Shown: one piece after another, positions 12,405 through 51,648 of the stretch | How the letters are laid out: the number at the start of each line of letters is the position of its first letter | Numbering within the stretch: position 1 is the stretch's first letter | Assembly: GCA_013388835.1 (NCBI GenBank) | Contig: JACAEL010000023.1 | Span: 1-57,030 of the forward strand | Length of the DNA stretch: 57,030 nucleotides | Reading direction: 5' to 3' | DNA from: Candidatus Thorarchaeota archaeon | Lineage (GTDB): Archaea; Asgardarchaeota; Thorarchaeia; Thorarchaeales; Thorarchaeaceae | Program-made: the position numbers and the translations under genes | The notes under the pieces: generated by a model | Told to the model about the DNA's origin: nothing | Databases searched by the model: none | What the model saw: the letters and a program-made list of their open reading frames with translations, nothing else

Positions 12405-13925
12405 ATGAGAATGCAGTCGACCGCTGTCATAGCACGAGGCACAACTCTGCTTCTCGTCCAGTCGCTCTTCTCTGGCTCTTTCAGACTCGTCAATGTCATG
12501 CTGTTGACACGTCTTCTGCCACAGACGGAAGTAGGTCGCATCGCAGTGCTGGCCATCATCTATGGCTATATGCAATTCATGGGGGCGGCCGGGCTCAATC
12601 ATGCAATGCCTCGTTTCGTGCCCGAACTGGAGAAGGCTGGCGGCAGAGCCCTTCGTTCGCTCTTCGCTGCTTCAGTCTTGGTGATAGTCTTCGCATCAGC
12701 GCTGCTACTGGTCGCATTCTCCGCTCTCTCTCCTGCTCTGGTGTCCAGCGGCCTGCTTGATTCAAACCTGGTTTTTCTTCTGTATTGTATCGCGCCGCTG
12801 TCTTCGCTGGGTGTCTTCTCCGACTCCTTCCTGCTTGCAAGGTATTCCGTCAGACCTCTGGCGATAGGACGGCTAGTCTTCGACACGATGCGGATGGCTC
12901 TCACCGTTATCTTGGTAATCCTTGGCATGGGAGTGGTCGGCGTGCTCCTCGGTTGGTTGGCGGCTGAGTTGTCGGGCCTTGCGGTATTCGTTCCATTCAG
13001 CCTGCGGTCGCTACCTTCCAACGAAGGCATACTGAGACTGCGTCCTGTGCTCGCCTTTGCTCTGCCAAGCCTACTCTTTCAGACAATAGACGTCACCATA
13101 CAGAACACGGACCGCATGGTTCTGCTTCAACTCACAGACCTTGCCTCTCTTGGAGTCTACGACGTGATACTGGGTATGCTCTTCATGCTCAGTTTTGTTG
13201 CTCTGTCTCTATCCGTTTCTCTCTATCCCGTCTTGACACGACTCGAGATTGGCAACACCGCTGGGATGCATGAGGCCCCTGTTGTCTCTGCTCCTGCCAG
13301 TCTCCTGATACGATATGTGCTGCTCATTCTCCTGCCAGTTTCCATAGTCCTCTCCATGAACGCAGAACGGACCCTGAGTCTAGTCTTTGGCACAAGCTAC
13401 TCGTCCTTTCCCGGTGCTTCGCTCTCCTTCGGACTGGTGGTTGTGTTCTACTCTCTGTGGGGCGTGACATATGCTCTCCACACCATCTTGAGGTCAATGG
13501 ACGAGTCTCACTTCTTCTGGTCGGTCGGTCTAGCGGTCATTGGGGTCGAACTACTTGTCTGCTGGTCGCTCGTACAGTGGCTAGGTCTGCTGGGTGCTGC
13601 CGTTACAAGGTGTGTCTATATCTCCATCTTGTTGTCAACGGCCCTCACCAGGCTCAAGAGACGGGGTGTGGCTCTCCAGGGACGGCTTGGTACCACAGTG
13701 TCACGTGTTGTGCCCGCATCACTGGTAGCGGGGGCGGCATTCTATGTTCTCTCTCCTGACACCCTGCTATCCGCTGCACTGACACTCTCGCTTGCCCTTC
13801 TTCTATGCTATGCACTACTCATACTTACCAAAGAGCCCATCCCCCTTGACTTTGTCATTGCACGTCACATACTGCCCAAGAAACTTCACCGTTTCTTGAA
13901 TTACATTGAAACCAGACAGTGCTAG
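12405..13925 (+). CDS. MOP-superfamily polysaccharide flippase (Wzx-like)
   Basis: A 506-residue protein of about 14 hydrophobic segments. The N-terminus carries the PST/Wzx pattern: LVQSLFSGSFRLVNVMLLTRLLPQTEVGRIA, then a helix pair with MPRFVPELEKAGGRALRSL. The role is to turn lipid-linked oligosaccharide from the inner to the outer leaflet. It lies just downstream of two GT4 genes on the same strand and ends with TAG. It is one of three flippases in this locus and shows no extra domain. Confidence 0.9.
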   Translation: MRMQSTAVIARGTTLLLVQSLFSGSFRLVNVMLLTRLLPQTEVGRIAVLAIIYGYMQFMGAAGLNHAMPRFVPELEKAGGRALRSLFAASVLVIVFASALLLVAFSALSPALVSSGLLDSNLVFLLYCIAPLSSLGVFSDSFLLARYSVRPLAIGRLVFDTMRMALTVILVILGMGVVGVLLGWLAAELSGLAVFVPFSLRSLPSNEGILRLRPVLAFALPSLLFQTIDVTIQNTDRMVLLQLTDLASLGVYDVILGMLFMLSFVALSLSVSLYPVLTRLEIGNTAGMHEAPVVSAPASLLIRYVLLILLPVSIVLSMNAERTLSLVFGTSYSSFPGASLSFGLVVVFYSLWGVTYALHTILRSMDESHFFWSVGLAVIGVELLVCWSLVQWLGLLGAAVTRCVYISILLSTALTRLKRRGVALQGRLGTTVSRVVPASLVAGAAFYVLSPDTLLSAALTLSLALLLCYALLILTKEPIPLDFVIARHILPKKLHRFLNYIETRQC

Positions 13926-15450: not shown

Positions 15451-18051
15451 CTAACCCCTTTCCCAGATGGATATCGACTCTATCAGCGTGTAACCGCCGG
15501 GGCTTCCCTCAATCTTTATGCGGATGTCTCCAATTGTTACACTGCCGACACTGCAATAGTAGACTTGGTCCTCGAGTCTCATGGCGCATCTGAGGAGTTC
15601 TCCCCTGTCGTCCCAGAGCTCGACAGATGTCACTCTTGATGAGATGTTCATGAGCTGCATGAGAATGAATCCTGTACCGATTGACATACCCAGCCCCCCT
15701 TCTCCAATCCAGTGTGTGTTTGTGTAGTCAGACTGGGTTCCAATCTGAAGCTGAGGGGTTCCATTGACATTGACGATGCTTCCGCCATTGCTGGCCGTCC
15801 ATCCCTGAGCAAGCATGTCGATTGTTGAAACTCTGGCATAGGTGGCCGAAGTGAATTCGAAGAGCCGAACTCTCTTCCCTGTTTCCGCGTCTTGGGATGT
15901 GGCAACGAGCGTCAGTGACAGTAGAGGATCTGTCATCGTCTTGTCTTTGATAGAACGAAGAGCGGACATGTTGAGCAGGACTGTTGAACCAACCGGCATC
16001 CAATCGTAGTACAGCCACTCAAGAGTCCGCCATTGCATAACCGCATAACTGTCGATGAGCAGGTATCTTGCATTGTATTGTTGTTGAAGATGTGCGATGA
16101 CCTGCGCGGCCTCATGGTCTGGTAGCCCTTGTTTCTCGAAGCCAAACGTCACCGCTTCTCTGCCCGTAACCCACGAGAACTCCCTTGCTCTCTCGACTAA
16201 GAATCTGTCACCATCTGTTGGTACTCCTCGAATCATGTTGTTGAGACTGTGCCATCCGTATCGGTGCTCAATCATGACAAGGTCTATTCCTGCCGGAATT
16301 GGCACGCAGGAGGGCACAAAACTGAGTGCCAGAATTGATAGGATGATTGCAGATCCGAGCTTGGTCCTGTGACGTGGCAGCCGCTTCATCTCGCGAAGCG
16401 TCAGTTCTTGCAGGAACTGGTGAAGCACCAGTCCGAACGGCGCAGAGCCCAGACAGAACATGAATACGATGAAGAGAAAGAAACGGGAGTCGGAGTACAG
16501 GTAGTAGTATTGCAGACTGCCCGTGATGCTAGACAGCACTGTCATTGTTCCAGCAGATGTCAGCAAGCCCGCAAGTAGCAGCACAGCTGTAGTGCGTCTC
16601 AGTGTTGGCACAGTAAGCGCTACTGCTGCGCCCAATATCACAAAGAAACCTGTGTGAAAGAGCAATAAGAAGACGAACTGTGGGGCAACGTCCAGTGGTG
16701 AGGTGTTGAGGACGTTGATGAGTTGACCCACTCCGGGTGAATGGTTTCCAGTGGCCTGTGCGCAGTTTCTCAGGTATGCTGGCCATTGCCAAGCTACTGA
16801 TGAAATGAGTATCCCTCCCAGGAATGCGATGAGTCCTCCAAAGTCATTGCAATCCAGTGCGTTCTTCCTCCTGAGAACGAGCAGTGACACGAAGAGCATG
16901 GACCAGCAGGTGATGAATACTGTAGTGATGGGCTGAAGCACACGGACGGTCAGCACGACCATCATGCACACCTGTAGCAATGCTCCGTTCTGTCTGCTCA
17001 GTCCTGCAAAGTACCAGATCAGCAGTGGAAAGATTAGACAGAGGATATAGAAGGTCGTGTACCAGATCTCGTTGATGAATCCTAATGTCACACCGGTCAC
17101 GAGGAGCCCCGCATTACTCCGTTTCCAAGACTCGCAAGAGACGACAAATGCGAAAGCAGAGAAGAGAAGACTCGTTATCTCGGGTCCATATCCTATGGCA
17201 GAATGGTAAATGAACAGTGGATGCAGTGCGATAACCGACGCAATCCAGTTCTCACAGTCCTTGCCAAAGTGGTTTCGGATGATAGTCGCTGTCGGCAACA
17301 GGAGGAGGGTCCCTGCAATGAGAAGGACAAAGGTCGGACCGCTAACTGACGGAGGCAACAGCAGCCACGAGAATGCAAACAAGAAGACCAATCCCTGATG
17401 ACTTATGTACTCGACTCCATTCCATAGTTCTTTCACAGCGCCATCATTGTGAACTGGCACCATGAAGTGTCCGTTCTGCATCTCTCGCGCATATGAGGAG
17501 TAAAGGGCCGCATCTGGCGCTATCGCGCCTTGAGCAATCACCATCAGTGCAGCTCGCAGTAGTAACCCGACCAAGAGTGCCACATAGAGCCAGTATGAGT
17601 CGCGAATCGTTGGAAGATACGAGATGTGTTCCTGTGCACGATGCCTCTGAAGATGTACCCCTGTTGTCAGCACTACAAGACTGGTCCCAGAAAGCATCCC
17701 GGCGAGTAGAGGTATCTGCAGACCCGTCAATAGTGCTAGGTTCCACAGTACCAGTATTTGAGCAAGAACGACAACCAGACCCATGCAGATGCCCATATCA
17801 CTCCCGCGAAGTCTTGGAGGCAGGTATTGCACCGCCATCGTTCCAGGAATCACGAGCAGCGAAACAAAGCCGAACACGAGCCTTCCGAATGTGGACAGAA
17901 GCCCGCAATCGCAGAGATGGTTGAGGGTGAACAGTGTCGCTGTGATTGCAAAACACTCCATCGAACGCAAAGGTGAAACACGGGCCAGCTTACCTACCAG
18001 AGTGTTCATTGCTGATTGTGGTTCTCTGTTTTCCATCGTACTCACGCTCAC
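15451..18051 (-). CDS. GT-C-like membrane glycosyltransferase with C-terminal beta domain
   Basis: An 866-residue protein. GTG 18051 is the longest start; ATG 18036 has GGTGAG about 10 bases upstream and may be the true one. Around 14 membrane segments fill residues 30-580. The first large outside loop has GAIAPDAALYSSYAREMQNG, the acidic catalytic-loop position of GT-C enzymes. The segment RYGWHSLNNMIRG...RAREFSWV and YLLIDSYAV follow outside. It is paralogous to the protein at 42796-44988 along its length, but adds about 130 C-terminal residues that look like a beta-sandwich, possibly carbohydrate-binding (inference). Its gene points against its neighbours. Confidence 0.78.
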   Translation of the reverse strand: MSVSTMENREPQSAMNTLVGKLARVSPLRSMECFAITATLFTLNHLCDCGLLSTFGRLVFGFVSLLVIPGTMAVQYLPPRLRGSDMGICMGLVVVLAQILVLWNLALLTGLQIPLLAGMLSGTSLVVLTTGVHLQRHRAQEHISYLPTIRDSYWLYVALLVGLLLRAALMVIAQGAIAPDAALYSSYAREMQNGHFMVPVHNDGAVKELWNGVEYISHQGLVFLFAFSWLLLPPSVSGPTFVLLIAGTLLLLPTATIIRNHFGKDCENWIASVIALHPLFIYHSAIGYGPEITSLLFSAFAFVVSCESWKRSNAGLLVTGVTLGFINEIWYTTFYILCLIFPLLIWYFAGLSRQNGALLQVCMMVVLTVRVLQPITTVFITCWSMLFVSLLVLRRKNALDCNDFGGLIAFLGGILISSVAWQWPAYLRNCAQATGNHSPGVGQLINVLNTSPLDVAPQFVFLLLFHTGFFVILGAAVALTVPTLRRTTAVLLLAGLLTSAGTMTVLSSITGSLQYYYLYSDSRFFLFIVFMFCLGSAPFGLVLHQFLQELTLREMKRLPRHRTKLGSAIILSILALSFVPSCVPIPAGIDLVMIEHRYGWHSLNNMIRGVPTDGDRFLVERAREFSWVTGREAVTFGFEKQGLPDHEAAQVIAHLQQQYNARYLLIDSYAVMQWRTLEWLYYDWMPVGSTVLLNMSALRSIKDKTMTDPLLSLTLVATSQDAETGKRVRLFEFTSATYARVSTIDMLAQGWTASNGGSIVNVNGTPQLQIGTQSDYTNTHWIGEGGLGMSIGTGFILMQLMNISSRVTSVELWDDRGELLRCAMRLEDQVYYCSVGSVTIGDIRIKIEGSPGGYTLIESISIWERG

Positions 18052-19781: not shown

Positions 19782-20915
19782 CTAATCTCTTGCCTTCGAG
19801 TACACTTGTAGTAGTGGATTCACTAGGCATTCCCAGCGATAATGCATGGCGGCCTTGTTTCTTGCACCGCTTGAGAGTTTATCTCGAAGCTGTGAATCGT
19901 GGAGCAGTTCTAGTATCGCCTCGGCAAGTTTCCTAGGGTTGTTTGGAGGTACAATCATGCCATCGGAGTTGTGACTAATCACGTCTCGTATTCCTCCGAC
20001 AGCAGTGGCCACCACTGGCTTTCCTGCTGCCATCGCTTCAAGAAGCGCGCAGGGCATACCTTCCGATACTGAGGGGAAGACGACAACCTGTGAGACTGTC
20101 AAGAGTCGTCTGATTTCATCTTGACTCACCGCATTCAGGAATTCGACGGTGGTCAGTCGATACTCAGATGCCATCTTCATGAGTCGTCCAAGTTCGGGAC
20201 CCCTGCCGGCGATTGCAACTCGTATTGGATTGCCACCGTCACGAAGGATCGCTGCCGCAGCAATGAGGTCTTGGAGTCCCTTCTGATGCTTTATGCCACC
20301 GAAGAACAACACATCATACTGCACATTTCTCTCAGACTGAACACTGAAGAACTGTGCAGACACCCCATTGGGTATCCTTGTCCGTTTCTGGGACGGGACC
20401 CCGAGTTGTCCTGCTATCCTCAGCAGGTCGTCGCTGACTACAATCAGGTGGTCAATCCATCGGAGCAGTCCCCGCACTATCCCCCTAAACAGAGCAGGCT
20501 TCGTGCATGTGTTCAAGTCGGAGCCATGACTGGTGGCGACGAGTACGGTCTTTGGTCTTAGCAGTTTGAGGATGATGCCTGCTAGCACTGGATAGTGAAT
20601 CATATGACAATGCACGACATCATAGTGGATGCGCGTGTTCAAGAGAATGTGAGCGAGGAACGAGGCGAATGTGGTCAGATGGAATGTAACGCCACTGAGA
20701 CTGCCCACTGCGATTCTTGGCGGTCTCCGTACAAGTACTCCTTCAACCAGTTCCTTGTCAATCGTAGATGGAATCCGAGCAGTCAGAACAGTCACTCTGA
20801 TGTGTTGTCGTGCAAGTTGCTTTGCTTGATTCAGAACAACTGTTTCAGCGCCCCCCATCATGGGAGGAAACAGGGGTGTAATCAGAAGTACCGAGGTTGG
20901 CTGAAGTCCTGTCAT
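19782..20915 (-). CDS. GT4-family glycosyltransferase
   Basis: A 377-residue GT-B enzyme. N-terminal LLITPLFPPMMGGAETVV has the Pro/Gly-rich acceptor loop typical of family 4. The donor half has RIPNGVSAQFF, VLFFGGIKHQKGLQDLIAA and SEGMPCALLEAMAAGKPVV with a complete E-x7-E. Its ATG overlaps the stop of the upstream GT4 gene as ATGA (20912-20915), so the two are translationally coupled and probably act one after the other on the same glycan. Confidence 0.92.
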   Translation of the reverse strand: MTGLQPTSVLLITPLFPPMMGGAETVVLNQAKQLARQHIRVTVLTARIPSTIDKELVEGVLVRRPPRIAVGSLSGVTFHLTTFASFLAHILLNTRIHYDVVHCHMIHYPVLAGIILKLLRPKTVLVATSHGSDLNTCTKPALFRGIVRGLLRWIDHLIVVSDDLLRIAGQLGVPSQKRTRIPNGVSAQFFSVQSERNVQYDVLFFGGIKHQKGLQDLIAAAAILRDGGNPIRVAIAGRGPELGRLMKMASEYRLTTVEFLNAVSQDEIRRLLTVSQVVVFPSVSEGMPCALLEAMAAGKPVVATAVGGIRDVISHNSDGMIVPPNNPRKLAEAILELLHDSQLRDKLSSGARNKAAMHYRWECLVNPLLQVYSKARD

Positions 20916-22567: not shown

Positions 22568-25189
22568 ATGGCCACTTTAGGAGGGGCTTCCAAGTTGACT
22601 CACGGGGTCGACCCGGCAACGCAGTCTGAAGGCACACCATCCCACACGGCAGTGATGGTTAGGGGTGTAATGCTCCTGACCGCAGGGAACATCATGAGCA
22701 TGGTCCTGTCAGTACTTACAGCAGTTGTTCTGTCCTTTCTGATACTGCCGTCGTCATTGGGCATTGCATCTGTCGTCCTTGCCTTCTCAGCCCTTTTCAT
22801 GCAGGTTTCGGACTTTGGGGTCTCGACAGCAGCAGTCAGCCTGAGCAGAAAGCAGTTGCAGCTGGGGCTGCCGGATTCCCAGATGCTGGGTAGCTATATC
22901 CTGCTGAAGATGTCATTGGGGTTCATCTGGACACTGGTGTCGATAGTTGCAGCCACCGTGCTCATCATGTCATGCTCCTTCTGCTACTCGACTGTATTGC
23001 TAATTGCCTGCCTTGCAGTATTCGGCAATGCAGCAGCGACAATGACGAACACCGTAGCATATTCACACTCACGATTTGATGTTGTACTTGTGAACGAGAT
23101 TGTCCGGAAGATAGTCGTGCTAGCGTTCCTCTTGATACTGGGCCAACCGCTACAAGCCGTAGGTTATGTCGGAGGAATCGCTGCTTCTGGTTTCGCTGGC
23201 TGCTGGTTGTCTCTGTCATACTTGCATAAATCTACAAGAGCCCCTTATTCGGCTGGCTTCTCCCTCGCAGTCTTCAGAAGCAACGCAGGAAAGATGGTTC
23301 GGTTTGGATTTCCAATCTTTCTGTCGTCGCTTCTGGAGTACGGTCATTCAACAGTCCCCATATTATTCCTTGTAGTTTTCACTTCTGAAACAGAACTAGG
23401 ACTGTTTGGATTCGCTCAGACGTTGATGGGCTTCATTCTCATGATGACAGTCAGTGTCGCAAATACCTTATTGCCAGTTCTCTCCTCAATTTCGAGTCCA
23501 GTCCAGTTCAGTACTTTGCTATCCAGATCAAATCGCCTAGTCTTGACCTTCAGCACTCCGGCCGCACTCCTAGTCGCTTTCCAAGGCCCCCTGATCATGT
23601 CGGTATTTGGTCCCCAGTATGCTGCCAGTGCCTCGATACTCTATGGGTTCGTTCTTCAGACTGCATTCTTTCCCATATTCCACAATCTCAACTCTGCCAT
23701 TGCAGCTTGGGGAAGGCCACGAATAGCCACCATTAGGTCGTTGATGGTGCTCGTAGTCAACGTAGTGGCGTGCTATCTTCTGGTACCACATCTGGGCGGT
23801 CTTGGTGCCGCCCTTGCATCATCAGTATCACTTGTTACTGGAATCTGGATTGGCGGGTACTTGCTCAATCAGGAGAACCAGCTGTTTGATACTTCATATG
23901 GCGCAGCTGGGAGGGCCGGGGTAGCACTGCTACCAGGACTTGCAGTCTTGTTCATCTTGGAACGCAATCACTGCCCAATTCCCGTTGTTGGACTGGCCTT
24001 CTTGACGGTAGTGGTCACCTATCCCCTAGTTGCGGGAAGGCTCCGACTTATCGGGCATCGTGACTTGGACATAATCGACGAGATGCTTCGCAAGAAATGG
24101 CCCGGAAGAGTGTTGCGGCGTCTGATAGCCGCATACCGTAGATTTCTGCCAACGGATTGGCGATCGGACTCAGTACGGTTCCGTGTCGACCGCAGTGTTC
24201 TGAACCGCATCATCTCAATTGCTGCAAATGGCAGACCATACGGCGAGCAGTTCTTCGTGGCTGATTCCAAAGATGGCTGGAAACATGTCTACATGGGCGG
24301 TTCTGTTGTCGAGAATCCGGCCGCAGTTCGCTCTGGCGAGTGGTGGGTAGTCCGAGGGTCTGAGATTCCGAGTATCATATGTGGGCGCTTGGGTTCATCA
24401 TGTCAGTACGTAGGCGTTCTGTTTTCCTTGGTCAGCACAAAACTCATCAGAGTCTACTCTCTTGGTCTAGCATCTACTAGTAGCTTCAGATGGGTTGTAG
24501 GGACCCACCTGAAGAGAAGTACCGAGTGGACGCATCCTCTTCCAACAGCTGACTCGGCGTCTGTTGTCCATCTGAGTTCAGTTCCTGTCATTGCTGCTCC
24601 AGTTGTCTATGTCATTCCTAGTTGCTTGTGGCACGGCTTCCTCCTCTTGCTTGATGTCCTGCACGGAGTGAAGGGATTGGGAAAGGTCTTCCACAGCAGT
24701 GCAACGACCCCCAAACAGGATGTGGTTCTGCGATGTAAAACAGCGCGTTGTCCGACTGCTATGGAGTCCTTTGCAGACACAGCTTCTTCAATCACTGACA
24801 CAGTGAAACGACTGGAGGAAGCCCGGCGTCTTGTCATTGTGTGTGAGGCATGGATGAAGGGCGTCCGCATTGGTACAGCCAAGGCTGGATATGACACTCT
24901 GACCAATGAGTGGTGGGTTCATGACGTCTATGTGCGGAAAAGGTATCGTCGAATGGGAGTTGGTCGCCGGCTTGTTCAGCTTGTTCTTGCCCGCCTCCAC
25001 ACGAATTGCCTCAAGCGTGTGTTCATTTCCGTGAACGTCAACAACACTGCCGCATATACTCTCTATCGGTCCTTGGGATTCTCCCGTGATACGGAGTGCC
25101 AGCAGTTGGAGTGGTGCTTGAATCTCGAATCAGGCATGACCCCCATCGATAAATCGGTCCGGCGAATCGTCATGAAACTGAATCTGTGA
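22568..25189 (+). CDS. MOP-superfamily flippase fused to a GNAT acetyltransferase
   Basis: One uninterrupted frame of 873 residues. Residues ~25-510 are a Wzx-like flippase with about 14 membrane segments, including LSSLLEYGHSTVPILFLVVF and GLGAALASSVSLVTGIW. Residues ~515-750 are soluble and unassigned (GEWWVVRGSEIPSIICGRLG, VLLSLV-like strands). Residues ~775-865 are a GNAT domain: WWVHDVYVRKRYRRMGVGRRL with the acetyl-CoA loop R-x-x-G-x-G at about 794-799, and NVNNTAAYTLYRSLGF at about 822-838, the classic N-x-x-A-x-x-L-Y...GF. The likely roles are export of a lipid-linked glycan and cytoplasmic acylation of an amino sugar or other group. I know of no standard family with this architecture. 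No frameshift or internal start suggests an artefact. Confidence 0.85.
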   Translation: MATLGGASKLTHGVDPATQSEGTPSHTAVMVRGVMLLTAGNIMSMVLSVLTAVVLSFLILPSSLGIASVVLAFSALFMQVSDFGVSTAAVSLSRKQLQLGLPDSQMLGSYILLKMSLGFIWTLVSIVAATVLIMSCSFCYSTVLLIACLAVFGNAAATMTNTVAYSHSRFDVVLVNEIVRKIVVLAFLLILGQPLQAVGYVGGIAASGFAGCWLSLSYLHKSTRAPYSAGFSLAVFRSNAGKMVRFGFPIFLSSLLEYGHSTVPILFLVVFTSETELGLFGFAQTLMGFILMMTVSVANTLLPVLSSISSPVQFSTLLSRSNRLVLTFSTPAALLVAFQGPLIMSVFGPQYAASASILYGFVLQTAFFPIFHNLNSAIAAWGRPRIATIRSLMVLVVNVVACYLLVPHLGGLGAALASSVSLVTGIWIGGYLLNQENQLFDTSYGAAGRAGVALLPGLAVLFILERNHCPIPVVGLAFLTVVVTYPLVAGRLRLIGHRDLDIIDEMLRKKWPGRVLRRLIAAYRRFLPTDWRSDSVRFRVDRSVLNRIISIAANGRPYGEQFFVADSKDGWKHVYMGGSVVENPAAVRSGEWWVVRGSEIPSIICGRLGSSCQYVGVLFSLVSTKLIRVYSLGLASTSSFRWVVGTHLKRSTEWTHPLPTADSASVVHLSSVPVIAAPVVYVIPSCLWHGFLLLLDVLHGVKGLGKVFHSSATTPKQDVVLRCKTARCPTAMESFADTASSITDTVKRLEEARRLVIVCEAWMKGVRIGTAKAGYDTLTNEWWVHDVYVRKRYRRMGVGRRLVQLVLARLHTNCLKRVFISVNVNNTAAYTLYRSLGFSRDTECQQLEWCLNLESGMTPIDKSVRRIVMKLNL

Positions 25190-25253: not shown

Positions 25254-26447
25254 CTATGCCGCAATCGCCCTTTGAAAGACGCTCAGATATGTTGTTCCTG
25301 CGGTTTCGAGATTGAACATCTCAAGAGCTCTCTGGCGTACAAGTCGAGCCAGGTCCCCTGCTTCTGGGTACTCACTTAGTTTCACCATCAAGCATGCAAG
25401 CTGATCTTCATCTTTTGGACGGAAGAGCAGATGTTCAAGCTCTGGACCAAACACCTCTCGATTTCCCGGAGTATCAGAAGCAATCACTGGCTTTCCGCAT
25501 GAGAATGCTTCAACGACAACCCGGGGGAATCCCTCAACTGGCGATGGTAGTACAAGTGCATCGGATACTGAAAGGCACTCTGGAAGATGCTGGTTTGGCA
25601 CTGAGCCCACGAATCTGATTACATCCGTCAGACCGAGAGTGTCGGCCATCCTGCGGTACTCCGAAATGCGTCTTGTTTCGGCAGCTGGACTGTGTGGGTG
25701 ACCCCCTACCATAAGGAGGCGAATCCTGGGGTTCTTGTTCCATGCGCTGGCGAACGCTCGAAGCAGGATTGAAACACCCTTCTGCTCGGTGAGTCTACCC
25801 ACATAGATGAACACGAAAGCGTCCTTTGTGTACCCCATCTTCCTTCGCCTCTCGTCACCACTCATGGGTACGAAGAGACTCGTGTCTACATAACCATGCA
25901 CCACACATATCCTATCAATGGGGACTCGCACTAATCTAGCGTAGGTGTACTTCATCTCCTCTGTCCCCGTGATGAGAACTGTGGTATGCCTAAGTGGGAC
26001 GATGAAGAGCAGCCATCTGATTACGTATGCTGCAAGGCTCCTGAATGAGCTTATCATGGTGGGGCCCGCTTTCAACTCCTCTCTTTCGTGTGTGTCCAGA
26101 CCACAATGCCACAACACAGTTCTCCTCGAAGTCAGAAACCCCGCGACGACCGTGGCGAGCAGCACTTTACCGACGATGTGACCATATAGGACACTAATCG
26201 AGTACTGCCTGACCGCTCTCACGATTCCGACCACCATTGTCAATGGTCTTGCCATGCGGAAGCGAGAATGAGGCAGCTTTACCAAGGTGACATTCTTGTG
26301 GACCGCGGACAGACAGAAACATATCAAAGGGGCAATCAAGAAGACCCTCACGCCCCTTCGCGCAAGTTCATTGGCAAGGTCGACAATATGCCTATACGTA
26401 CTGGCATCGCTGTCGACAAGCCGTTCAACAATCAGACCTATACGCAC
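25254..26447 (-). CDS. GT4-family glycosyltransferase
   Basis: A 397-residue GT-B enzyme from GTG 26447, preceded closely by AGGAAGG. Donor-domain motifs are VVHGYVDTSLFVP, FIYVGRLTEQKGVSILLRAF and VEGFPRVVVEAFSCGKPVI with E-x7-E intact. Hydrophobic helices near residues 95-110 and 150-165 suggest a membrane-bound acceptor half. It is the last gene of a three-gene minus-strand operon (deacetylase, FemAB-like, this GT4) with gaps of 20-30 bp. Confidence 0.9.
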   Translation of the reverse strand: MRIGLIVERLVDSDASTYRHIVDLANELARRGVRVFLIAPLICFCLSAVHKNVTLVKLPHSRFRMARPLTMVVGIVRAVRQYSISVLYGHIVGKVLLATVVAGFLTSRRTVLWHCGLDTHEREELKAGPTMISSFRSLAAYVIRWLLFIVPLRHTTVLITGTEEMKYTYARLVRVPIDRICVVHGYVDTSLFVPMSGDERRRKMGYTKDAFVFIYVGRLTEQKGVSILLRAFASAWNKNPRIRLLMVGGHPHSPAAETRRISEYRRMADTLGLTDVIRFVGSVPNQHLPECLSVSDALVLPSPVEGFPRVVVEAFSCGKPVIASDTPGNREVFGPELEHLLFRPKDEDQLACLMVKLSEYPEAGDLARLVRQRALEMFNLETAGTTYLSVFQRAIAA

Positions 26448-26467: not shown

Positions 26468-27529
26468 CTAGATTGGACTTAGCCTTTTCACTAATGGACT
26501 CCTCTCAATGATTCTTATGGATGCTGAACCTGCTCTCTGTGGAAGAACGCTTCGTCCCATGACCCTCGTACTAAGTCCAATGAACGTTGTGAATGGCTGA
26601 AGTCTGCAGCCAAAACCCATCTTGAACTGGGTTATTCTGCGCAATCTCGGCTCTTGGAAATCTGCCCCGAACATGTTCAATCTGAGCTGACCGTTCTCAT
26701 GTCCGTACATGATTGCCGCCCACATTATGGCATCCATCGGTCTATACCACTGACTGCTTCTGTCCATGGCGCTTCCCAGGTACCCCACCTCCGCGTCAGT
26801 TATGATGAAAGCGGCTGCTCCAAGGAGTCTTCCATCGGCTCTTGCAGTCACAATGTGTAAGAGGCCTGCGCGGAGTGCAAGTCTATAGGACTGAACATCT
26901 CGCTCTCTCAGTTCTCCATAGTAGCGTCCCTTTAGTGACAGATACTGCTCGAAGCTTTCTGCCGACTGAGAATGGTGGACCTCTACCCCTCTCTTTTCAG
27001 CTTGTCTCACAGCATTCCTAGTCTTCTTGTCGAGTCCCGCCCATAGTTCTTCTTTGGTACGATTCAGCGCCAGCACAGGTGTAACTCTTGCCTTTGGAAC
27101 AAAGCCCAGTTTCAACAAGGTTTCAGTCAGATGTTTATCTGCCGAATGGATGTGCACAGCCCACCCATCAATCTGAACCATGCTCTTGGACTCGGGGCAC
27201 ATTCCAGGGATTCTAGTCACTGCTGCTGCTAAGATGTCGGCAGAACGTTTTGTGTCCTGTTGCGACTTCGGAACAATGAGTGGACTTCCCTCAAGCCCGC
27301 CCAAGACGAACACTCGTCGACACCAGAGGGGTGTGTGGCCTGCCCATATCAGTCTGCCGAAGACCAATGCAGCCGTTCTGCCCTCATGCTCTACTATCAG
27401 TCTGAGTGGGCATGAATTGCTGACTTGTGCGCGACTCTGAATCCAATCATAGTTCGAGGCAATCTCACCCTGACGGCCCATTCTCGCGAGCAAGTTCTCC
27501 CACATGCTGCGGCTTCTACAGACTCTCAT
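26468..27529 (-). CDS. FemAB-like / GNAT-fold acyltransferase
   Basis: A 353-residue protein with the double-GNAT layout of FemAB/FemX relatives. An N-terminal half contains MWENLLARM and GGLEGSPLIV. A middle helix has ELWAGLDKKTRNAVRQAEKRGVEV, matching the basic R-x-x-I/V-R-x-A-x-K-x-G motif of the family. The second half has GRLLGAAAFIITDAEVGYLGSAMD and ends in QFKMGFGCRLQP, where the family has the F-K-x-x-F-G signature. In bacteria these enzymes add amino acids to cell-wall precursors or serve exopolysaccharide loci. Here it sits between a polysaccharide deacetylase and a GT4, so acylation of a deacetylated amino sugar is a reasonable inference. Confidence 0.82.
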   Translation of the reverse strand: MRVCRSRSMWENLLARMGRQGEIASNYDWIQSRAQVSNSCPLRLIVEHEGRTAALVFGRLIWAGHTPLWCRRVFVLGGLEGSPLIVPKSQQDTKRSADILAAAVTRIPGMCPESKSMVQIDGWAVHIHSADKHLTETLLKLGFVPKARVTPVLALNRTKEELWAGLDKKTRNAVRQAEKRGVEVHHSQSAESFEQYLSLKGRYYGELRERDVQSYRLALRAGLLHIVTARADGRLLGAAAFIITDAEVGYLGSAMDRSSQWYRPMDAIMWAAIMYGHENGQLRLNMFGADFQEPRLRRITQFKMGFGCRLQPFTTFIGLSTRVMGRSVLPQRAGSASIRIIERSPLVKRLSPI

Positions 27530-27559
27530 TGATACTGTTTCTGTCAGGGCGGCGACCTC

Positions 27560-28531
27560 CTACAGATGTCCTGTCAGTCTATATCTGAGCGCCAAGATTC
27601 TAGACCCTATCGACCGGACAAGACGGTAGTGCTTCCGAGGAGATCTCCATCCAAGAATACTCCCTAACACGTCTGGTGCATCCAACCAGTACGGTTCAAT
27701 ACTCAGTCCTTTCCACCGGTCCCCCATTTCGGAAACCGAGAAGCTCTCATATTCGTACTCGCTCAGAACCGCAGCGAGCTTATCAAAACGTTCTACAACC
27801 CATCCCCTTATTGACTCGCCGTTTTCAGTCACTGGTTTCCAAGAGTGGGTGGTTACATAGGCAATTACCGGACGGTCCATAACTCTCGACAGGTCACCAA
27901 GATACTTCAGTCCCCGAATCATCGCCTTCTCCGCCGTCTGTCTCTCTCCTGCTTGGTTCGGCCAATAGTTCAGACACAGTCTGTAGTTTGTTACGGGGAT
28001 GACCAATACAGAAGAACTCCCTCTTCTTGTGACATCGTGGGTACTTGGGAAGTACGGAGAGTCGGGCAAGTCGTACCATCTCATGTTCGCGACACGAGAG
28101 TTCTTGACTGGCGAGCAGTCGTAGTCAATCTGCAGTCGCTCCAGTACGTTTATCGTGGAGGTAGTGGTGAAGTACCATCCGGCCCTGAACACTCGTACGC
28201 GGTGTCCTGCATCACAGAGTGAAGACGCACCTGAGGAGATTTCGTCATATCTTACCTTTGAATCAGTAGAGGTGATATGCGAATGCAATCCTATCTCGTA
28301 GCCTTCATCTGACAATGCATCCACTATGCTTGGATATCTCAATGATATCTTCAGATTCGGATCCGCCTGTTCCTGAATGTGAAAGGTCGCTCTGAGGTCC
28401 AGCCTGCGAAACACGTCCGCAAGCAGGGCAGTTCCTTTTTTCAAAGCTGGGTTGTGCGCCGAGGCCACGCAGTTACCGAACCTGAAGGAGTCAAACTCCG
28501 TATCTACGTCCACTACTACCCAAAGAGGCAC
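27560..28531 (-). CDS. Polysaccharide deacetylase-like protein (CE4 fold)
   Basis: A 323-residue protein starting at GTG 28531. The N-terminus VVDVDTEFD supplies the conserved acidic start of the NodB fold. RATFHIQEQADPN is the T-F-F/H strand, and YEIGLHSH gives the metal-binding H-x-x-x-H-like pair region. RAGWYFTTTS is the motif-3 R-x-x-x equivalent, and ending helices follow. There is no signal peptide, so it probably acts in the cytoplasm or at the inner face on a lipid-linked sugar or nucleotide sugar. It is the first gene of the deacetylase-FemAB-GT4 operon. Confidence 0.8.
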   Translation of the reverse strand: MPLWVVVDVDTEFDSFRFGNCVASAHNPALKKGTALLADVFRRLDLRATFHIQEQADPNLKISLRYPSIVDALSDEGYEIGLHSHITSTDSKVRYDEISSGASSLCDAGHRVRVFRAGWYFTTTSTINVLERLQIDYDCSPVKNSRVANMRWYDLPDSPYFPSTHDVTRRGSSSVLVIPVTNYRLCLNYWPNQAGERQTAEKAMIRGLKYLGDLSRVMDRPVIAYVTTHSWKPVTENGESIRGWVVERFDKLAAVLSEYEYESFSVSEMGDRWKGLSIEPYWLDAPDVLGSILGWRSPRKHYRLVRSIGSRILALRYRLTGHL

Positions 28532-32536: not shown

Positions 32537-35500
32537 TTGATCGCAATACTCGTGATGATTGGGGTTTCTCTCTCAGCATCGGTGAGCCTCGTCTTGGCGT
32601 ACAGACGGGAGCGGACCATCTGTTTCGACCTCACTTGGCTACACAACTGCGGTGGTCTGCTCAAGACTCTGCTTTGGAGCCTCTGTATCGCTGTTTCCCT
32701 GTTCTACATCTCTCCAAATGGGACAAGTTTCACAGAGTGGGGTCACATCGAGTTGCTGCGTCTCCTCTCCACCCCACTATGTCTGAGTCTCGTCCTCTTC
32801 TGGCCGGGGTTCTGTCTCATCAATTCTCTTTCGAGCAGGTGCACAGTTTCCTTTGCAGAACGTGTTGCCCTTTCGGTCATCCTGTCAATCTCTCTACAAC
32901 TGATTCTCACCTGCTCAAGTAGCATCTTGTTCTCTGGCTATGTCGTGTCCTTCGTTCTAGGTGTCACTCTGGCGATGAACTCGGTTGGCGCGGCACTGGC
33001 GACCGTTCATGTATTGTATGAGATGTATAGATTCCGTCGGACAACGTTACCTTCTGCTGGTACGCATATTGTCAATGTGTTGGTCTTCAGAAGCTTGGCC
33101 CTGTTCTTCACTGCAGCATACGCCTTAACCGCCATACTTCTCATACAGATGGGTTTCAGCTACGGACTGCACGGAGACATGCTGAGCCACCATGGGGATG
33201 CACTCAAGCTCCTAGGCCCTAACAGCGCAATCAACCCCTCCGGCTACTATCCCTGGTATTGGTCGTTGCTGGCTCTCCTCTTCAGCATTTCGCCAATCCC
33301 CTCACTGAACACAGTGATTCTGCTGGCTCTTCTTTCCCCGCTCCTATATACCCTTGGGTTCTATGCGGCAGTGGAACGCTTATGGAGAACCCCCCTTCCC
33401 TCGGCACTTTTGACCTACCTGTTTGTCACATCTGGCGGCTTCGAATGGATTGTCTGGTTGGTTCAAGTGGTCGGAGCAGATATGAACCCCACTGTGGCAG
33501 TGTCGTACACAGCTGCGGCGACAATGTATGGAATCATTTACAGTGGTCTGTCCAACTTCTACTACTTCATGCCCATGACGCTAGGTTATCTGGGGCTGTT
33601 TGCCGGCCTCCAAATGACATTCACATTTCTCCGAACAGAATCAGAACATCCGTGGCTGTGTCTATTGCTTGTGCCAATCACCATGGTCCTGCTTCTCTAT
33701 CATGGACCCGAGTTTGTGTACCTAGAGGTCTTCATAGCGTGTGTTTTCCTACTGAAACCTAATGGGACGGGCTTTCTCCACATTCAGGGAGCTGTACTCC
33801 TTGGACTGATTGGTACGCTCCTGCTGGTCCTCCTATCCGGGATGTCTTTTGCCACAATCTATCTATACTCTCTTCTAGGCGCGCTTGGTCTGTTTCTTGG
33901 ACTTCCCTTGATTCTCCTACTATTCAAGCGACTCTCGGTGGCATGGTCAGCCGTCATGAAACAGCTCCCGATATCATTTTCAACATCCCTGAGTCTGTTC
34001 TTGAGGGCAGTGCCACTAGGTGTCTGGGTTTCTGCTGTGTTCTACTTTGCTCTGGATCATCCAAGTTTAATATCAACAATGGCGGGATACTATGAAGTAG
34101 TTCCTTGGTATCTGTATCCGATACGTATGGGCGTACTTCTTCTGATGTTCACGATCGTCATTCTAACGTATGGTGATAGCAATCGAAACTTGAAGATATC
34201 CTTGTTGCCACTGTTTGCGCTTCTTGCCTTTGCCAAGTTGTCGACATACATGAGTTTCAGTCGTATCAGTGCCTACTTGGAAGCACGTTTCTTGACATCG
34301 ATCTCCATGGTCCTCGCCTTTTCGTTATCCACAGTCATAGGACAACACTGTCTGAATAGTTCCAGTCGTAGAACCACTACCGCTCTTGTCTTCACAGTGC
34401 TTCTCCTGAACCCCATGACTCTGTGTCTTCAGGTCTACTATTGGAACGACATGGGGTCCAAGTCTTACACGGCAGTCCCTATCGGTGTTATCGATGGGTT
34501 GCAGTACATACGCGACAACGCGTTGCCCGGTGAAGCCGTTCTCGTCCTCAGACAGAGCTATATCCCTCTTCTTGAAGCCATCACCCCACTTGATGGCGTT
34601 CCTGTCAGCTGGTTGACCTATGGTTCTCTTGCCGGAAGCGCTAGCCTAGCTAACATACGTGATCCTCTTGCGATGTTCATGCTCTTGGCTAGCTACAACG
34701 TCGGTTATGTTCTGAGTGCGCAGTGCGGAAACACGATAGAACCGACATCTGCGATACTTCTGTTTCTACCCTTGCTTCCTAAGGTGTTCGTGAATGACTT
34801 TGTGACTATTTATCGCGTGCCGAGTCTTGGTAATCTTGGTACAGGAAATCACTCAATTACCGACATAGGTGGACGCGGTATCGGGTCTGAGCTGGACTAC
34901 CCTCTCTCTCTCATGGCAGATGGCGACTCGACTTCACTGGAGAACCCTTCATACTGGACGGCGCTTGGTAATGTGACGATTAGTAGTTCGGAAGACTGCC
35001 TTTTTGGCTCGAGTAGTCTGCTGCTTACCACACAGACTAACGGCGTAGCCTATCGGCTACTTCCATCCTTGAATGCGAGCTCAGGATTGATGCTCCGCTT
35101 CTATCTAAAGTGCAATACTTCAGCATCAGTCATGGTTCGGATAGGCAGTTCCAGTTCGGACTTCTTCTACAGCTATGTAGACACAAACGTACCCAGTTTC
35201 AGACTAACATCACTAACAATCGATGAAACGACCTCGATGCGCAGAGCGGGCAATCCAAACCTCAATTCCATAGTCTACCTAGGCCTTCTCGTAATTGGAG
35301 AACCTGGTATAGTCCTGATTGATGGTATGACTATCCGCAAGATTGACACAACAACACCAGCCAACTCAAGTCGACTGGCAAGCCTGTTGTTACCTCTTCT
35401 CGCATCGGGCACTGAATGTCACTATGCCCTTCATCCGGATACTCATACCTCCCACAGTCTTGTTCTGATTGATGACGACACACCCATCAACATGAGTGCG

Positions 35501-36673
35501 CACTTTCATGAATGGCTCAAGGATGGCGGGTCGCTAGTTGTCTTTGGAAACGGTCACGACGGATTCGTATTTGACTATCTCAATCTATCATCCAGTGCCC
35601 ATGTTGACTCCTCCCGCATTCTGAAGATGGGTAACGTGTTAGCGATGCCTTTCACAGTCCGCATTCCGGTCATCGAGTTTGACAACTACAGCATGTATGC
35701 ACCTGTATCCTACTGGTCTGAGAGCCTTGGTAGTGTGCCAGCTGTCCTAACAAAGGTCATTGACAAGGGTCAGATTCACTACATCTCAGTTGACAGCATA
35801 CTGGACAATTGGGCGTCGTGCGATAACAAGACTGCGGTACTTGTCCTTCTGAGTGCTATCGTTTCAGACTTGATTCCCAAAGCCAATGTCAGTCAATGGC
35901 ATTCCCTTTCGGCTCTCAGGAGATATGTAACCCGTGAGCATATTCCGGCCGGATTCTCTCTTGGCAATATCAATCTGCACGGGCCGTTCTCGCTCACGAC
36001 CTCCTATCTATTCTTGGGTGACACAGCCAACATTTCGTTATTGACTATCATTCAACCTGACAACGAAACCAAGTTCGAGAATGTGAGACTAAGACAGCTG
36101 ACGTTGCCTGGAATGGAAGCATGCGTGGTACACTCTGAGGGTCCGGCGCAAGTGATTCACACCGACTACGCCGAAACATCCCTCTTTCTGTCCTCCAGCA
36201 CAGTCACTGTTGTCTTCAACACATCAGACGACAGTCCCGTCTCCTTCGAGTTGTATGATGGCGAGTCTTGTGAGTCCGTCATTCTAACCAATGTTTCATC
36301 CATTGTGATGTCCATTGTTGGGGGCACGGCGTTTGCTGCACGATACCCACACGTGAATGTCCCAGGAGGCATGACTCTGTCGAGGCCCTATATACTTGAA
36401 CAAGTGATCCCGTCACTCACAGCCCGATCCGGCGCAAGCATCAACTTGAGCTGCAACTCAAGTTTCAACTTGCTGTCTCTTGGAAGCCTAGACTACCTAG
36501 CATATCTTGAGATTGAGGAAACACCTGACTACTCCTTCGACTACTGGAGTGAATGGTCGAATGCCGAGTTTCCTATCCAAGAGATATCACCTTGGCTATT
36601 CCCGGTGACTTCGGTCTTCTTGATATCCCTTGGCATAGCTCTCCCAGTCAATCTGCGTAGGAGAAGAAGATAG
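32537..36673 (+). CDS. Very large GT-C-like membrane protein with sequon-rich outside domain
   Basis: A 1378-residue protein starting at TTG 32537, with AGGGAG about 8 bases upstream; ATG 32555 is an alternative. Residues 1-630 carry some 14-16 membrane segments. The loop MGFSYGLHGDMLSHHGDALKLLG and YYPWYWSLLALL resemble the catalytic loop and following motif of STT3/PMT-like GT-C enzymes. LQYIRDNALPGEAVLVL at about 655 is the usual first outside segment. Residues 630-1350 lie outside and hold at least fifteen N-x-S/T sequons. Within them LVLIDDDTPINMSAHFHEWL and GGSLVVFGNG (about 975-1010) resemble a glutamine-amidotransferase-like fold. One membrane segment and RRRRR end the protein. Substrate unknown. 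Confidence 0.75.
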   Translation: MIAILVMIGVSLSASVSLVLAYRRERTICFDLTWLHNCGGLLKTLLWSLCIAVSLFYISPNGTSFTEWGHIELLRLLSTPLCLSLVLFWPGFCLINSLSSRCTVSFAERVALSVILSISLQLILTCSSSILFSGYVVSFVLGVTLAMNSVGAALATVHVLYEMYRFRRTTLPSAGTHIVNVLVFRSLALFFTAAYALTAILLIQMGFSYGLHGDMLSHHGDALKLLGPNSAINPSGYYPWYWSLLALLFSISPIPSLNTVILLALLSPLLYTLGFYAAVERLWRTPLPSALLTYLFVTSGGFEWIVWLVQVVGADMNPTVAVSYTAAATMYGIIYSGLSNFYYFMPMTLGYLGLFAGLQMTFTFLRTESEHPWLCLLLVPITMVLLLYHGPEFVYLEVFIACVFLLKPNGTGFLHIQGAVLLGLIGTLLLVLLSGMSFATIYLYSLLGALGLFLGLPLILLLFKRLSVAWSAVMKQLPISFSTSLSLFLRAVPLGVWVSAVFYFALDHPSLISTMAGYYEVVPWYLYPIRMGVLLLMFTIVILTYGDSNRNLKISLLPLFALLAFAKLSTYMSFSRISAYLEARFLTSISMVLAFSLSTVIGQHCLNSSSRRTTTALVFTVLLLNPMTLCLQVYYWNDMGSKSYTAVPIGVIDGLQYIRDNALPGEAVLVLRQSYIPLLEAITPLDGVPVSWLTYGSLAGSASLANIRDPLAMFMLLASYNVGYVLSAQCGNTIEPTSAILLFLPLLPKVFVNDFVTIYRVPSLGNLGTGNHSITDIGGRGIGSELDYPLSLMADGDSTSLENPSYWTALGNVTISSSEDCLFGSSSLLLTTQTNGVAYRLLPSLNASSGLMLRFYLKCNTSASVMVRIGSSSSDFFYSYVDTNVPSFRLTSLTIDETTSMRRAGNPNLNSIVYLGLLVIGEPGIVLIDGMTIRKIDTTTPANSSRLASLLLPLLASGTECHYALHPDTHTSHSLVLIDDDTPINMSAHFHEWLKDGGSLVVFGNGHDGFVFDYLNLSSSAHVDSSRILKMGNVLAMPFTVRIPVIEFDNYSMYAPVSYWSESLGSVPAVLTKVIDKGQIHYISVDSILDNWASCDNKTAVLVLLSAIVSDLIPKANVSQWHSLSALRRYVTREHIPAGFSLGNINLHGPFSLTTSYLFLGDTANISLLTIIQPDNETKFENVRLRQLTLPGMEACVVHSEGPAQVIHTDYAETSLFLSSSTVTVVFNTSDDSPVSFELYDGESCESVILTNVSSIVMSIVGGTAFAARYPHVNVPGGMTLSRPYILEQVIPSLTARSGASINLSCNSSFNLLSLGSLDYLAYLEIEETPDYSFDYWSEWSNAEFPIQEISPWLFPVTSVFLISLGIALPVNLRRRRR

Positions 36674-42795: not shown

Positions 42796-44988
42796 TCAGA
42801 GTGGTGTCCTCGCCATCTCAAACAGGCGTACGCTCCTGCGAGTAGGATCCGCCGAATTCTCACGGTAGACTGTACCACTGACACGATAGACAACAGACTG
42901 ATTTCCCGGACCCGAGGTAGTGACCACACCGAACTCAATCTCCTCTCCCTCTGCGTATTGTGCTGTGAGAAGGGGTCTCAGTACATATATGCGGTCAACA
43001 GTGTACAGGTCTATCAGAAGATAGTCGGCCTCAAACTGAATGCTGAGTCTGGCTATCAGCAGAAGCACTGTTGTCACGTCTGTCGGGACTTCCTGGATGA
43101 CCATGACTACTGAAGTCCGGTTGTGGACCCAAGCGAACTCTCTGGCACGGTCAGCTATGACTCGGGCCCCGGGCGGGATGTCATCCACAATGGTGTCTAG
43201 ACCATACCACCCGTATCTTTGAACTGGGTTGACGTAGGAGAGACCCGTGTATGCTACCAGATACACCGGCGTCAGGTTGACAAACAACAAGATGAGAACG
43301 GTCCTGAGGCGTTTCCTGTCCGGTCTGGATGACCTCAGCTGGGTGGGGAAACCCTTGTCATAAGCAAGTGAGACAAAGCCTCCTGATGCGACGATTGTGA
43401 TCATGAGAACCGGGAAGAGGAAGAATCTCCCACTTGTGAAGAGCTGCTCGAGAATGAGTGGTTCAAACACATGAATGACAGGCAGTGTTCCCAACAATCC
43501 GAGAAGAGTGACGACAGAGAGTGAACGAACTGTATATCTAAGGGTCCTCGAGGTGATGACAATTACGAACAGGGCAAGGACAGGTAGTAGAGAATGAAAC
43601 GCAAGAAAGCACAGAAAGCGCAACATGTACTCTGGACTGATGGGGCTTGTCAGTGAGACAAGAAGGGTTGACGCACCGAAACCCGGAACTGCACCCTCCG
43701 ACTGAAGGTTACTGATTTGAGATGGGATGTGGAGGAACTCCTGACTGACCACAAGAGACAGGAAGAGCGGCCATGACCTGTACCAATCAGGCAAAGACAA
43801 CCCGAGTCTACGGGGTAGGATGAAGAGGGCAAGTACTACCAACCAGACGAAAGCGAATAATGGGACTTCATGAATGACCATCCTTGCCAGTAAAACGCAC
43901 GAGACTGAGACTGCAGAGATGGCCCCCTGTAATCTCTGTTGGGGGCTCATAAGGATAGGACCGACTGCCAGAATCATGCAGGTCACATAGTAGTTCGCGA
44001 ACCAGACGAACTCTATCATTGCTACCAATACACCGAGCAGGAAGAATGTGCCTCGACTGCCGGGTTCGGCTCTCAGTATCAATGCAACCGCGTATGCGAG
44101 GATTGCAAGTGTTGAAATCGAGGGGCCATATCCTACGCTAGAGAAGTAGACCATGGAGGGGGAGATTGCGACTATGCACGCCGCAAACAGTCCAGCTTCT
44201 CTTGAGAGGAAGTGCGCCGCGATTTCAAAGGTGGGAAACACCACCATGCTCCCTAGAATCAGCGTGAGAAGCATCGGCGCGCCGACTGTAGTAGGGAGTA
44301 GCATCATGGAAATGGCGAAGACATACCCTATCCCCTGATGCCAGATCTCATGGGTTGTCGGAGACCTCTGGAAGACACCCTCGTCGTTCAGAAGATTGCT
44401 ATGAAACACTCCTTGTTGGATGGAACGCGCATAGTCCGAATACACGCATGCATCAGGGGCAATAGAGGACGAGCCTAGGAGCATGAACAAGACCCTTGTG
44501 ACTAACGCCAGACAGAAGGCATAGAACAGGTATCTCTCAACTGAGGACCATTGCCTCTTCCAGTAGGATACTGTCGCAATGGATGCGGTCCGGGGAGAAA
44601 CTGCAAGCATGAATCCACCCAGTATCGGGATAGAAACCCCCAAGAACACCCTCAAGGGTACAGTCAGGCCTAGGAAGAGGGAGAGAAGGAACTGGATATG
44701 GACGATGAGAATCGCGACAAGAGTCCCGAGGAGGACCGAGAGACCGGGAATGGACGGAATCGTGTCATGCAGGAGAACCCGGAGCGTGGTACCCGGAATC
44801 AATATGACCGCAAGGAAACCTGCCACTCCGTTGAGTACCAAGAGGACTGGACTACCTGCAGGTGCAGGAATCGTAATGAGTATCCCTACCGTGATGAGAT
44901 GGGCGAAGAAGACGAGGCATCGTCTGAAGTGGACCCAATGTTTCTTCTCGGAGGGCTCGGGTTCCGTGCTCATAGTCCGCACCAGCAT
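42796..44988 (-). CDS. GT-C-like membrane glycosyltransferase
   Basis: A 730-residue protein with about 14-15 membrane segments between residues 20 and 590. It shares colinear blocks with the protein at 15451-18051: SSIAPDACVYSDYARSIQQG in the first outside loop, WHQGIGYVFAISMMLLP, VYFSSVGYGPSISTL, RYGWYGLDTIVDDIPPG, RAREFAWV, YLLIDLYTV and RLFEMART. The acidic loop marks it as a probable polyprenyl-phosphate-sugar-dependent enzyme acting at the outer face. It lacks the extra C-terminal beta domain of its paralogue. Convergent with the acyltransferase. Confidence 0.78.
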   Translation of the reverse strand: MLVRTMSTEPEPSEKKHWVHFRRCLVFFAHLITVGILITIPAPAGSPVLLVLNGVAGFLAVILIPGTTLRVLLHDTIPSIPGLSVLLGTLVAILIVHIQFLLSLFLGLTVPLRVFLGVSIPILGGFMLAVSPRTASIATVSYWKRQWSSVERYLFYAFCLALVTRVLFMLLGSSSIAPDACVYSDYARSIQQGVFHSNLLNDEGVFQRSPTTHEIWHQGIGYVFAISMMLLPTTVGAPMLLTLILGSMVVFPTFEIAAHFLSREAGLFAACIVAISPSMVYFSSVGYGPSISTLAILAYAVALILRAEPGSRGTFFLLGVLVAMIEFVWFANYYVTCMILAVGPILMSPQQRLQGAISAVSVSCVLLARMVIHEVPLFAFVWLVVLALFILPRRLGLSLPDWYRSWPLFLSLVVSQEFLHIPSQISNLQSEGAVPGFGASTLLVSLTSPISPEYMLRFLCFLAFHSLLPVLALFVIVITSRTLRYTVRSLSVVTLLGLLGTLPVIHVFEPLILEQLFTSGRFFLFPVLMITIVASGGFVSLAYDKGFPTQLRSSRPDRKRLRTVLILLFVNLTPVYLVAYTGLSYVNPVQRYGWYGLDTIVDDIPPGARVIADRAREFAWVHNRTSVVMVIQEVPTDVTTVLLLIARLSIQFEADYLLIDLYTVDRIYVLRPLLTAQYAEGEEIEFGVVTTSGPGNQSVVYRVSGTVYRENSADPTRRSVRLFEMARTPL

Positions 44989-51475: not shown

Positions 51476-51648
51476 GGATGCGGCCGCTGTCCAGAGGCTG
51501 TGCAGTATTGGATACCACTCGTGATAATCATGTGACTGCATGCAGGAAGGGAGGCCTTCAAGTCCACTCGCATTTCAAGGAAATCTGAGGAGTGGTTCCA
51601 GTGCCTCCTTGTGGGGACGATAGGACTCCTGTGTCCAGCTCTGTCAGA

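Follow-up and report, generated by a model that had tools for sequence, protein, structure and literature searches.

Wzx/PST flippases, which belong to the MOP superfamily (TC 2.A.66.2), are thought to discriminate among glycans, and how cells ensure that the decoration of a glycan is finished before its export is, to our knowledge, poorly understood. Among GNATs, WecD is an N-acetyltransferase acting on a nucleotide sugar and RimI is a protein N-acetyltransferase, and sequence similarity within the family is a poor predictor of substrate. A flippase and GNAT folds are combined in MprF, the lysyl-/aminoacyl-phosphatidylglycerol synthase-flippase, which has two activities and modifies its phospholipid before flipping it; in RtMprF, a flexible loop following TM14 connects the flippase to tandem GNAT folds (PMC8131360). 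For Asgard archaea, a transporter survey lists PST flippases, and a search of it found no flippase-GNAT fusion (PMC7997004). Our literature text searches likewise found no described family with this architecture, in agreement with the preliminary description of the present locus, which knew of no named family so arranged.

The locus lies in a 57,030-nt stretch of Thorarchaeota DNA (hereafter the window) and consists of a gene (22568..25189, + strand) whose single unbroken frame encodes a predicted 873-aa protein with, according to Pfam, a MOP flippase, an unassigned region and a GNAT domain; four further Pfam families above cut-off agree with the flippase and GNAT assignments. The N-terminal part (residues ~30-525; 22655..24142, + strand) is a MOP-superfamily flippase of the Wzx/PST type by profile and segment count, and glycan translocation is predicted for it. 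PF01943 (Polysacc_synt) matches residues 31-308 with 50.0 bits against a curated cut-off of 28.2 (E 3.8e-13), and PF13440 also matches this part. The hydropathy profile has exactly 14 distinct peaks, all within residues 42-489, a number that fits the 12-14 TM segments expected of a MOP flippase. The 14-segment Wzx-like transporter proposed earlier is thus supported by both profile and hydropathy. Alignment with stand-alone Asgard flippases shows a typical Wzx C-terminus, 'LIGHRDLDIIDEMLRK', and places the end of the flippase at residue ~525, so that the unassigned stretch spans residues ~526-710. The region had been recognized before, at ~235 residues, and its size has to be reduced to ~185.

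The C-terminal domain (residues ~711-873; 24698..25186, + strand) is a GNAT by profile, fold and motifs, for which acyl-CoA-dependent transfer is predicted. PF00583 (Acetyltransf_1) matches residues 752-838 above its curated cut-off (E 4.6e-14) and PF13508 matches the domain as well (E 2.7e-10). An AlphaFold2 model built from 25 sequences, 23 of them added GNATs, has a pLDDT of about 90-97 in the GNAT core, and Foldseek searches of the PDB with this model list only GNATs among 50 matches (best E 1.8e-8). Both motifs reported from the first inspection are intact, namely the acetyl-CoA loop YRRMGVG (R-x-x-G-x-G; residues 793-799; 24944..24964, + strand) and NNTAAYTLYRSLGF, which contains the usual general-acid Tyr (residues 825-838; 25040..25081, + strand). 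No NCBIfam equivalog is assigned above its cut-off. The best curated match is the RimI model TIGR01575 (36.6 bits, below the cut-off of 86.4), the WecD model PRK10975 reaches 12.7 bits for a cut-off of 219, and PDB sequence matches include RimI and N-alpha-acetyltransferases. As the closest named models are mixed and all score far under their cut-offs, no sugar specificity is indicated.

Between the two domains, the middle region (24143..24697, + strand) has neither a Pfam match over cut-off nor a PDB sequence match. Structure prediction of the C-terminal part, confident for the GNAT core, did not extend to this region, where pLDDT is mostly below 50 in both AlphaFold2 models (2-sequence and 25-sequence). 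A strand at residues 536-541 that resembles GNAT beta-1 in the 25-sequence model results from the placement of the extra rows by MAFFT and is no evidence of such a fold. The region contains up to three moderately hydrophobic stretches (residues 617-708) and a GEWW motif (24335-24352).

A second fusion, also in a single frame, is present in Candidatus Thorarchaeota isolate C14-20 (JARGGA010000089.1; JARGGA01), a member of the same family but of another genus. The 407-residue frame runs from the contig edge to a stop codon and spans the end of the flippase, the middle region and the GNAT, with 25-27% identity to the window fusion. The frame begins within the last two membrane segments, and the flippase of this relative is known from its last ~70 residues only, which carry a Wzx-type C-terminus (GAIKKSDVDSIRK). 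Its GNAT keeps both motifs, as FRRQGIG in the CoA loop and NETGINLYQRVGF around the Tyr. The middle region is 24% identical between the two proteins, the GEWW motif is conserved, and no hydrophobic stretch exceeds the 1.5 threshold in the relative's copy. Thus, a predicted single polypeptide with flippase and GNAT recurs in a second genus, where it lies in a conserved glycan cassette.

Such fusions are extremely rare among Asgard genomes. A protein search of 47 genomes of the family found no copies beyond these two, and profiles of the C-terminal part and of the middle region alone found no third copy in 228 Asgard genomes (two of 228). A scan of 84,980 genomes with short peptide patterns, a narrow search as regards organisms other than Asgard archaea, did not return a third copy either, and searches of plasmids and IMG/VR gave no match. 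A stand-alone GNAT gene considered as a truncated third copy has unrelated neighbours, and weak matches to the middle region are attributable to chance, as they lie in wrong genes or broken frames. Among the PF01943 matches listed for the phylum, almost every frame is shorter than 600 aa, and no other flippase listed has a comparable C-terminal extension. Long flippases of ~890-944 aa are nevertheless recurrent in Asgard archaea, with frames of such length in at least 11 genomes. Those of 889-944 aa, the only long frames listed besides the fusion, were considered as its kin and belong to a different family: in all six checked, the extra domain is N-terminal, with a signal peptide, a ~270-residue extracytoplasmic domain, a single TM and then a charged linker preceding Polysacc_synt, and Pfam names the flippase part only.

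The cassette common to both genomes comprises the fusion, two GT4 glycosyltransferases, a FemAB-like transferase, a NodB-like deacetylase and a giant membrane protein. In the window, the GT4 genes (19782..20915 and 25254..26447, both - strand) are 43% and 41% identical to the relative's copies, and one of them lies on the opposite side of the fusion, indicating that cassette order has been rearranged between the two genomes. The FemAB-like acyl/aminoacyltransferase (26468..27529, - strand; PF02388, E 6.9e-11) is 37% identical to its counterpart, and the NodB-like polysaccharide deacetylase (27560..28531, - strand), which matches PF01522 just under cut-off and TIGR03006 below threshold, is 62% identical. 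This FemAB-NodB pair (26468-28531) is kept beside the fusion in both genera. An ortholog of the deacetylase in another genome lies in a cluster without a flippase-GNAT gene. The last member, a 1378-aa multi-spanning membrane protein (32537..36673, + strand; 33% identity), has no Pfam match over cut-off and is probably GT-C-like. The fusion itself is the fastest-changing cassette member (25% identity).

The window also holds many glycosyltransferases and three Wzx-type flippase genes within 57 kb (12405-13925, 22568-25189 and 45205-46776), which suggests that several separate glycan pathways lie side by side. Four large proteins of 730-1378 aa have no Pfam match over cut-off (15451-18051, 32537-36673, 42796-44988 and 46808-49201); at least the products of 15451-18051 and 32537-36673 seem to cross the membrane several times and could represent GT-C-type glycosyltransferases not yet described. 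At 50450-52779, a gene for a Gmd-like GDP-mannose 4,6-dehydratase adjoins a gene for an aminotransferase that has perosamine synthetases as its closest PDB matches (E 6e-102). These genes likely represent a GDP-perosamine-type pathway by which the thorarchaeon could make a 4-amino sugar. Given their distance from the fusion (~25 kb), and given that the relative's genome holds no specific ortholog of the aminotransferase (best 41%), the substrate of the fusion may come from elsewhere.

Our preferred reading, which we hold tentatively and by analogy with MprF, is a 'modify then flip' protein, in which the GNAT would N-acylate a lipid-linked glycan and the attached flippase would export it. Since the membrane segments are even in number, and given the general topology of Wzx proteins, the C-terminal GNAT should lie on the cytosolic face. 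There, it would N-acylate (most likely N-acetylate) the free amine of a sugar residue in a polyprenyl- or dolichyl-linked oligosaccharide, acetyl-CoA (or another acyl-CoA) being the donor expected from the GNAT motif and a lipid-linked glycan being the cargo expected of a Polysacc_synt-family flippase with glycosyltransferase neighbours. The covalently attached flippase would then carry the acylated glycan across the membrane, where a GT-C-like enzyme of the cassette may use it, and the deacetylase of the cassette might free the amine for re-acylation by the GNAT or the FemAB enzyme. In favour of this reading are the domain matches, the motifs and fold of the GNAT, the 14 membrane segments, the recurrence of fusion and cassette in another genus, the precedent of MprF, and the dehydratase and aminotransferase genes, which make a supply of amino sugar plausible. 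Against it count the small number of examples, two, the second of which opens at a contig edge, the mixed, sub-cut-off GNAT models, and the remoteness of the perosamine-type genes. We infer the substrate, the order of the steps, any gating of flipping by acylation and the cytosolic placement. The preliminary interpretation had two parts: that flippase and GNAT form one chain, which holds and recurs in a second genus, and that this chain couples glycan acylation to export, which is partly supported, as it fits the deacetylase, FemAB and glycosyltransferase neighbours and the precedent of MprF, and which we likewise infer. A bolder version, which we consider unlikely, would be a new bifunctional family of Thorarchaeota that evolved independently of MprF, in which the flippase comes with a dedicated glycan acyltransferase as well as a new domain of ~185 residues, such that only correctly acylated lipid-linked glycans are flipped (proofreading or gating).

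Other explanations concern either the integrity of the gene or the activity of its product. The fusion could be an artefact in which a sequencing or assembly error joined neighbouring genes, a suspicion raised by the fact that flippases of other Asgard genomes are stand-alone proteins, mostly of about 420-580 aa. The relative, being of another genus and having a continuous frame through the flippase end, the middle region and the GNAT, makes this extremely improbable. In addition, codon composition is even along the gene (GC3 of 0.55 in the flippase, 0.54 in the middle region and 0.56 in the GNAT), there are no homopolymers of 5 nt or more at 23900-24400, and the remaining two + strand frames across the gene are broken. 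Thus, the gene probably contains no frameshift or assembly join: the missed stop or frameshift near 24100 envisaged in the preliminary description is contradicted, and its reading of 22568-25189 as one continuous polypeptide holds, with exact coordinates and length. A second question is whether the middle region represents a decayed first GNAT fold, which would give a tandem like that of the MprF synthase; the pair might then transfer a group different from acetate, such as an amino acid. The region does occupy the position of GNAT fold 1 of MprF, an EWW stretch is present both there and in a GNAT strand, and aligning the two parts of the window protein brings both EWW into register, with a borderline p of about 0.05 in pairwise shuffles (0.07 for the same comparison within the relative). 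However, profile comparison scored at or below shuffled controls, cross-protein pairings were not significant, the relative's EWW is out of register and AlphaFold2 gives no confident fold, leaving a tandem very unlikely.

The main rival to modify-then-flip is a tethering function, in which the GNAT, like WecD, would acetylate a soluble amino sugar activated by a nucleotide, while the flippase acts separately and the joining merely fixes their stoichiometry or place. The domains and the cassette are equally compatible with such a function, for which GNAT-family nucleotide-sugar N-acetyltransferases such as WecD offer known examples and the 12.7-bit match to the WecD model a faint hint. This match is however far under its cut-off, and a soluble reaction provides no obvious reason for keeping a ~185-residue region in two genera, so that tethering appears a credible but somewhat unlikely explanation. 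Next comes a regulatory role, in which the GNAT would acetylate a protein, be it the attached flippase or one of the cassette enzymes, and thereby control export. Although RimI provides the best curated model and appears with N-alpha-acetyltransferases among the PDB sequence matches, its score is well below cut-off, GNAT similarity says little about substrate and the rest of the cassette is biosynthetic, and we regard regulation as quite unlikely.

Under modify-then-flip, the fusion of a decorating enzyme to a flippase would name a likely partner pair and allow their coupling to be tested, as MprF has done in the case of phospholipids, and it adds to the scant knowledge of Asgard surface glycan pathways. 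Owing to its rarity, the fusion is better seen as an experiment of nature than as a general principle: an unusual and testable architecture, with two known examples and a predicted function.

Compared with described systems, the fusion is a Wzx/PST flippase in its Pfam family, 14 segments, C-terminal signature and placement in a glycosyltransferase cluster, and it differs from its Asgard homologues in that they stop about where its extra ~350 residues start. With GNATs (Acetyltransf_1) of both the sugar type exemplified by WecD and the protein type exemplified by RimI, it has motifs and fold in common, but its GNAT is covalently attached to a flippase and falls under all NCBIfam equivalog cut-offs. 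The neighbouring deacetylase and FemAB enzymes recall the pair associated with XrtA/PEP-CTERM systems (TIGR03006 and TIGR03019), both models being matched weakly, at about one tenth of their cut-offs or less. The fusion is not a member of the MprF family, as neither LPG_synthase domain was found: Pfam gives no match to LPG_synthase_TM or LPG_synthase_C at E values up to 1, nor to LPG_synthase_C with the middle region alone at E values up to 10. The flippase of MprF is LPG_synthase_TM, whereas that of the fusion is MOP/Polysacc_synt; MprF has tandem GNAT folds, whereas the fusion has one recognisable GNAT, with an acetyl-CoA loop; and the cargo, a phospholipid in MprF, would here be a lipid-linked glycan. 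The resemblance is one of plan only: MprF consists of a large multi-spanning flippase (14 numbered TM elements in RtMprF) followed by C-terminal cytosolic GNAT folds (PMC8131360), and the fusion similarly has, within one frame, a flippase followed by a transferase part, presumably on the cytosolic side, and is proposed to modify and then flip its cargo, as MprF does.
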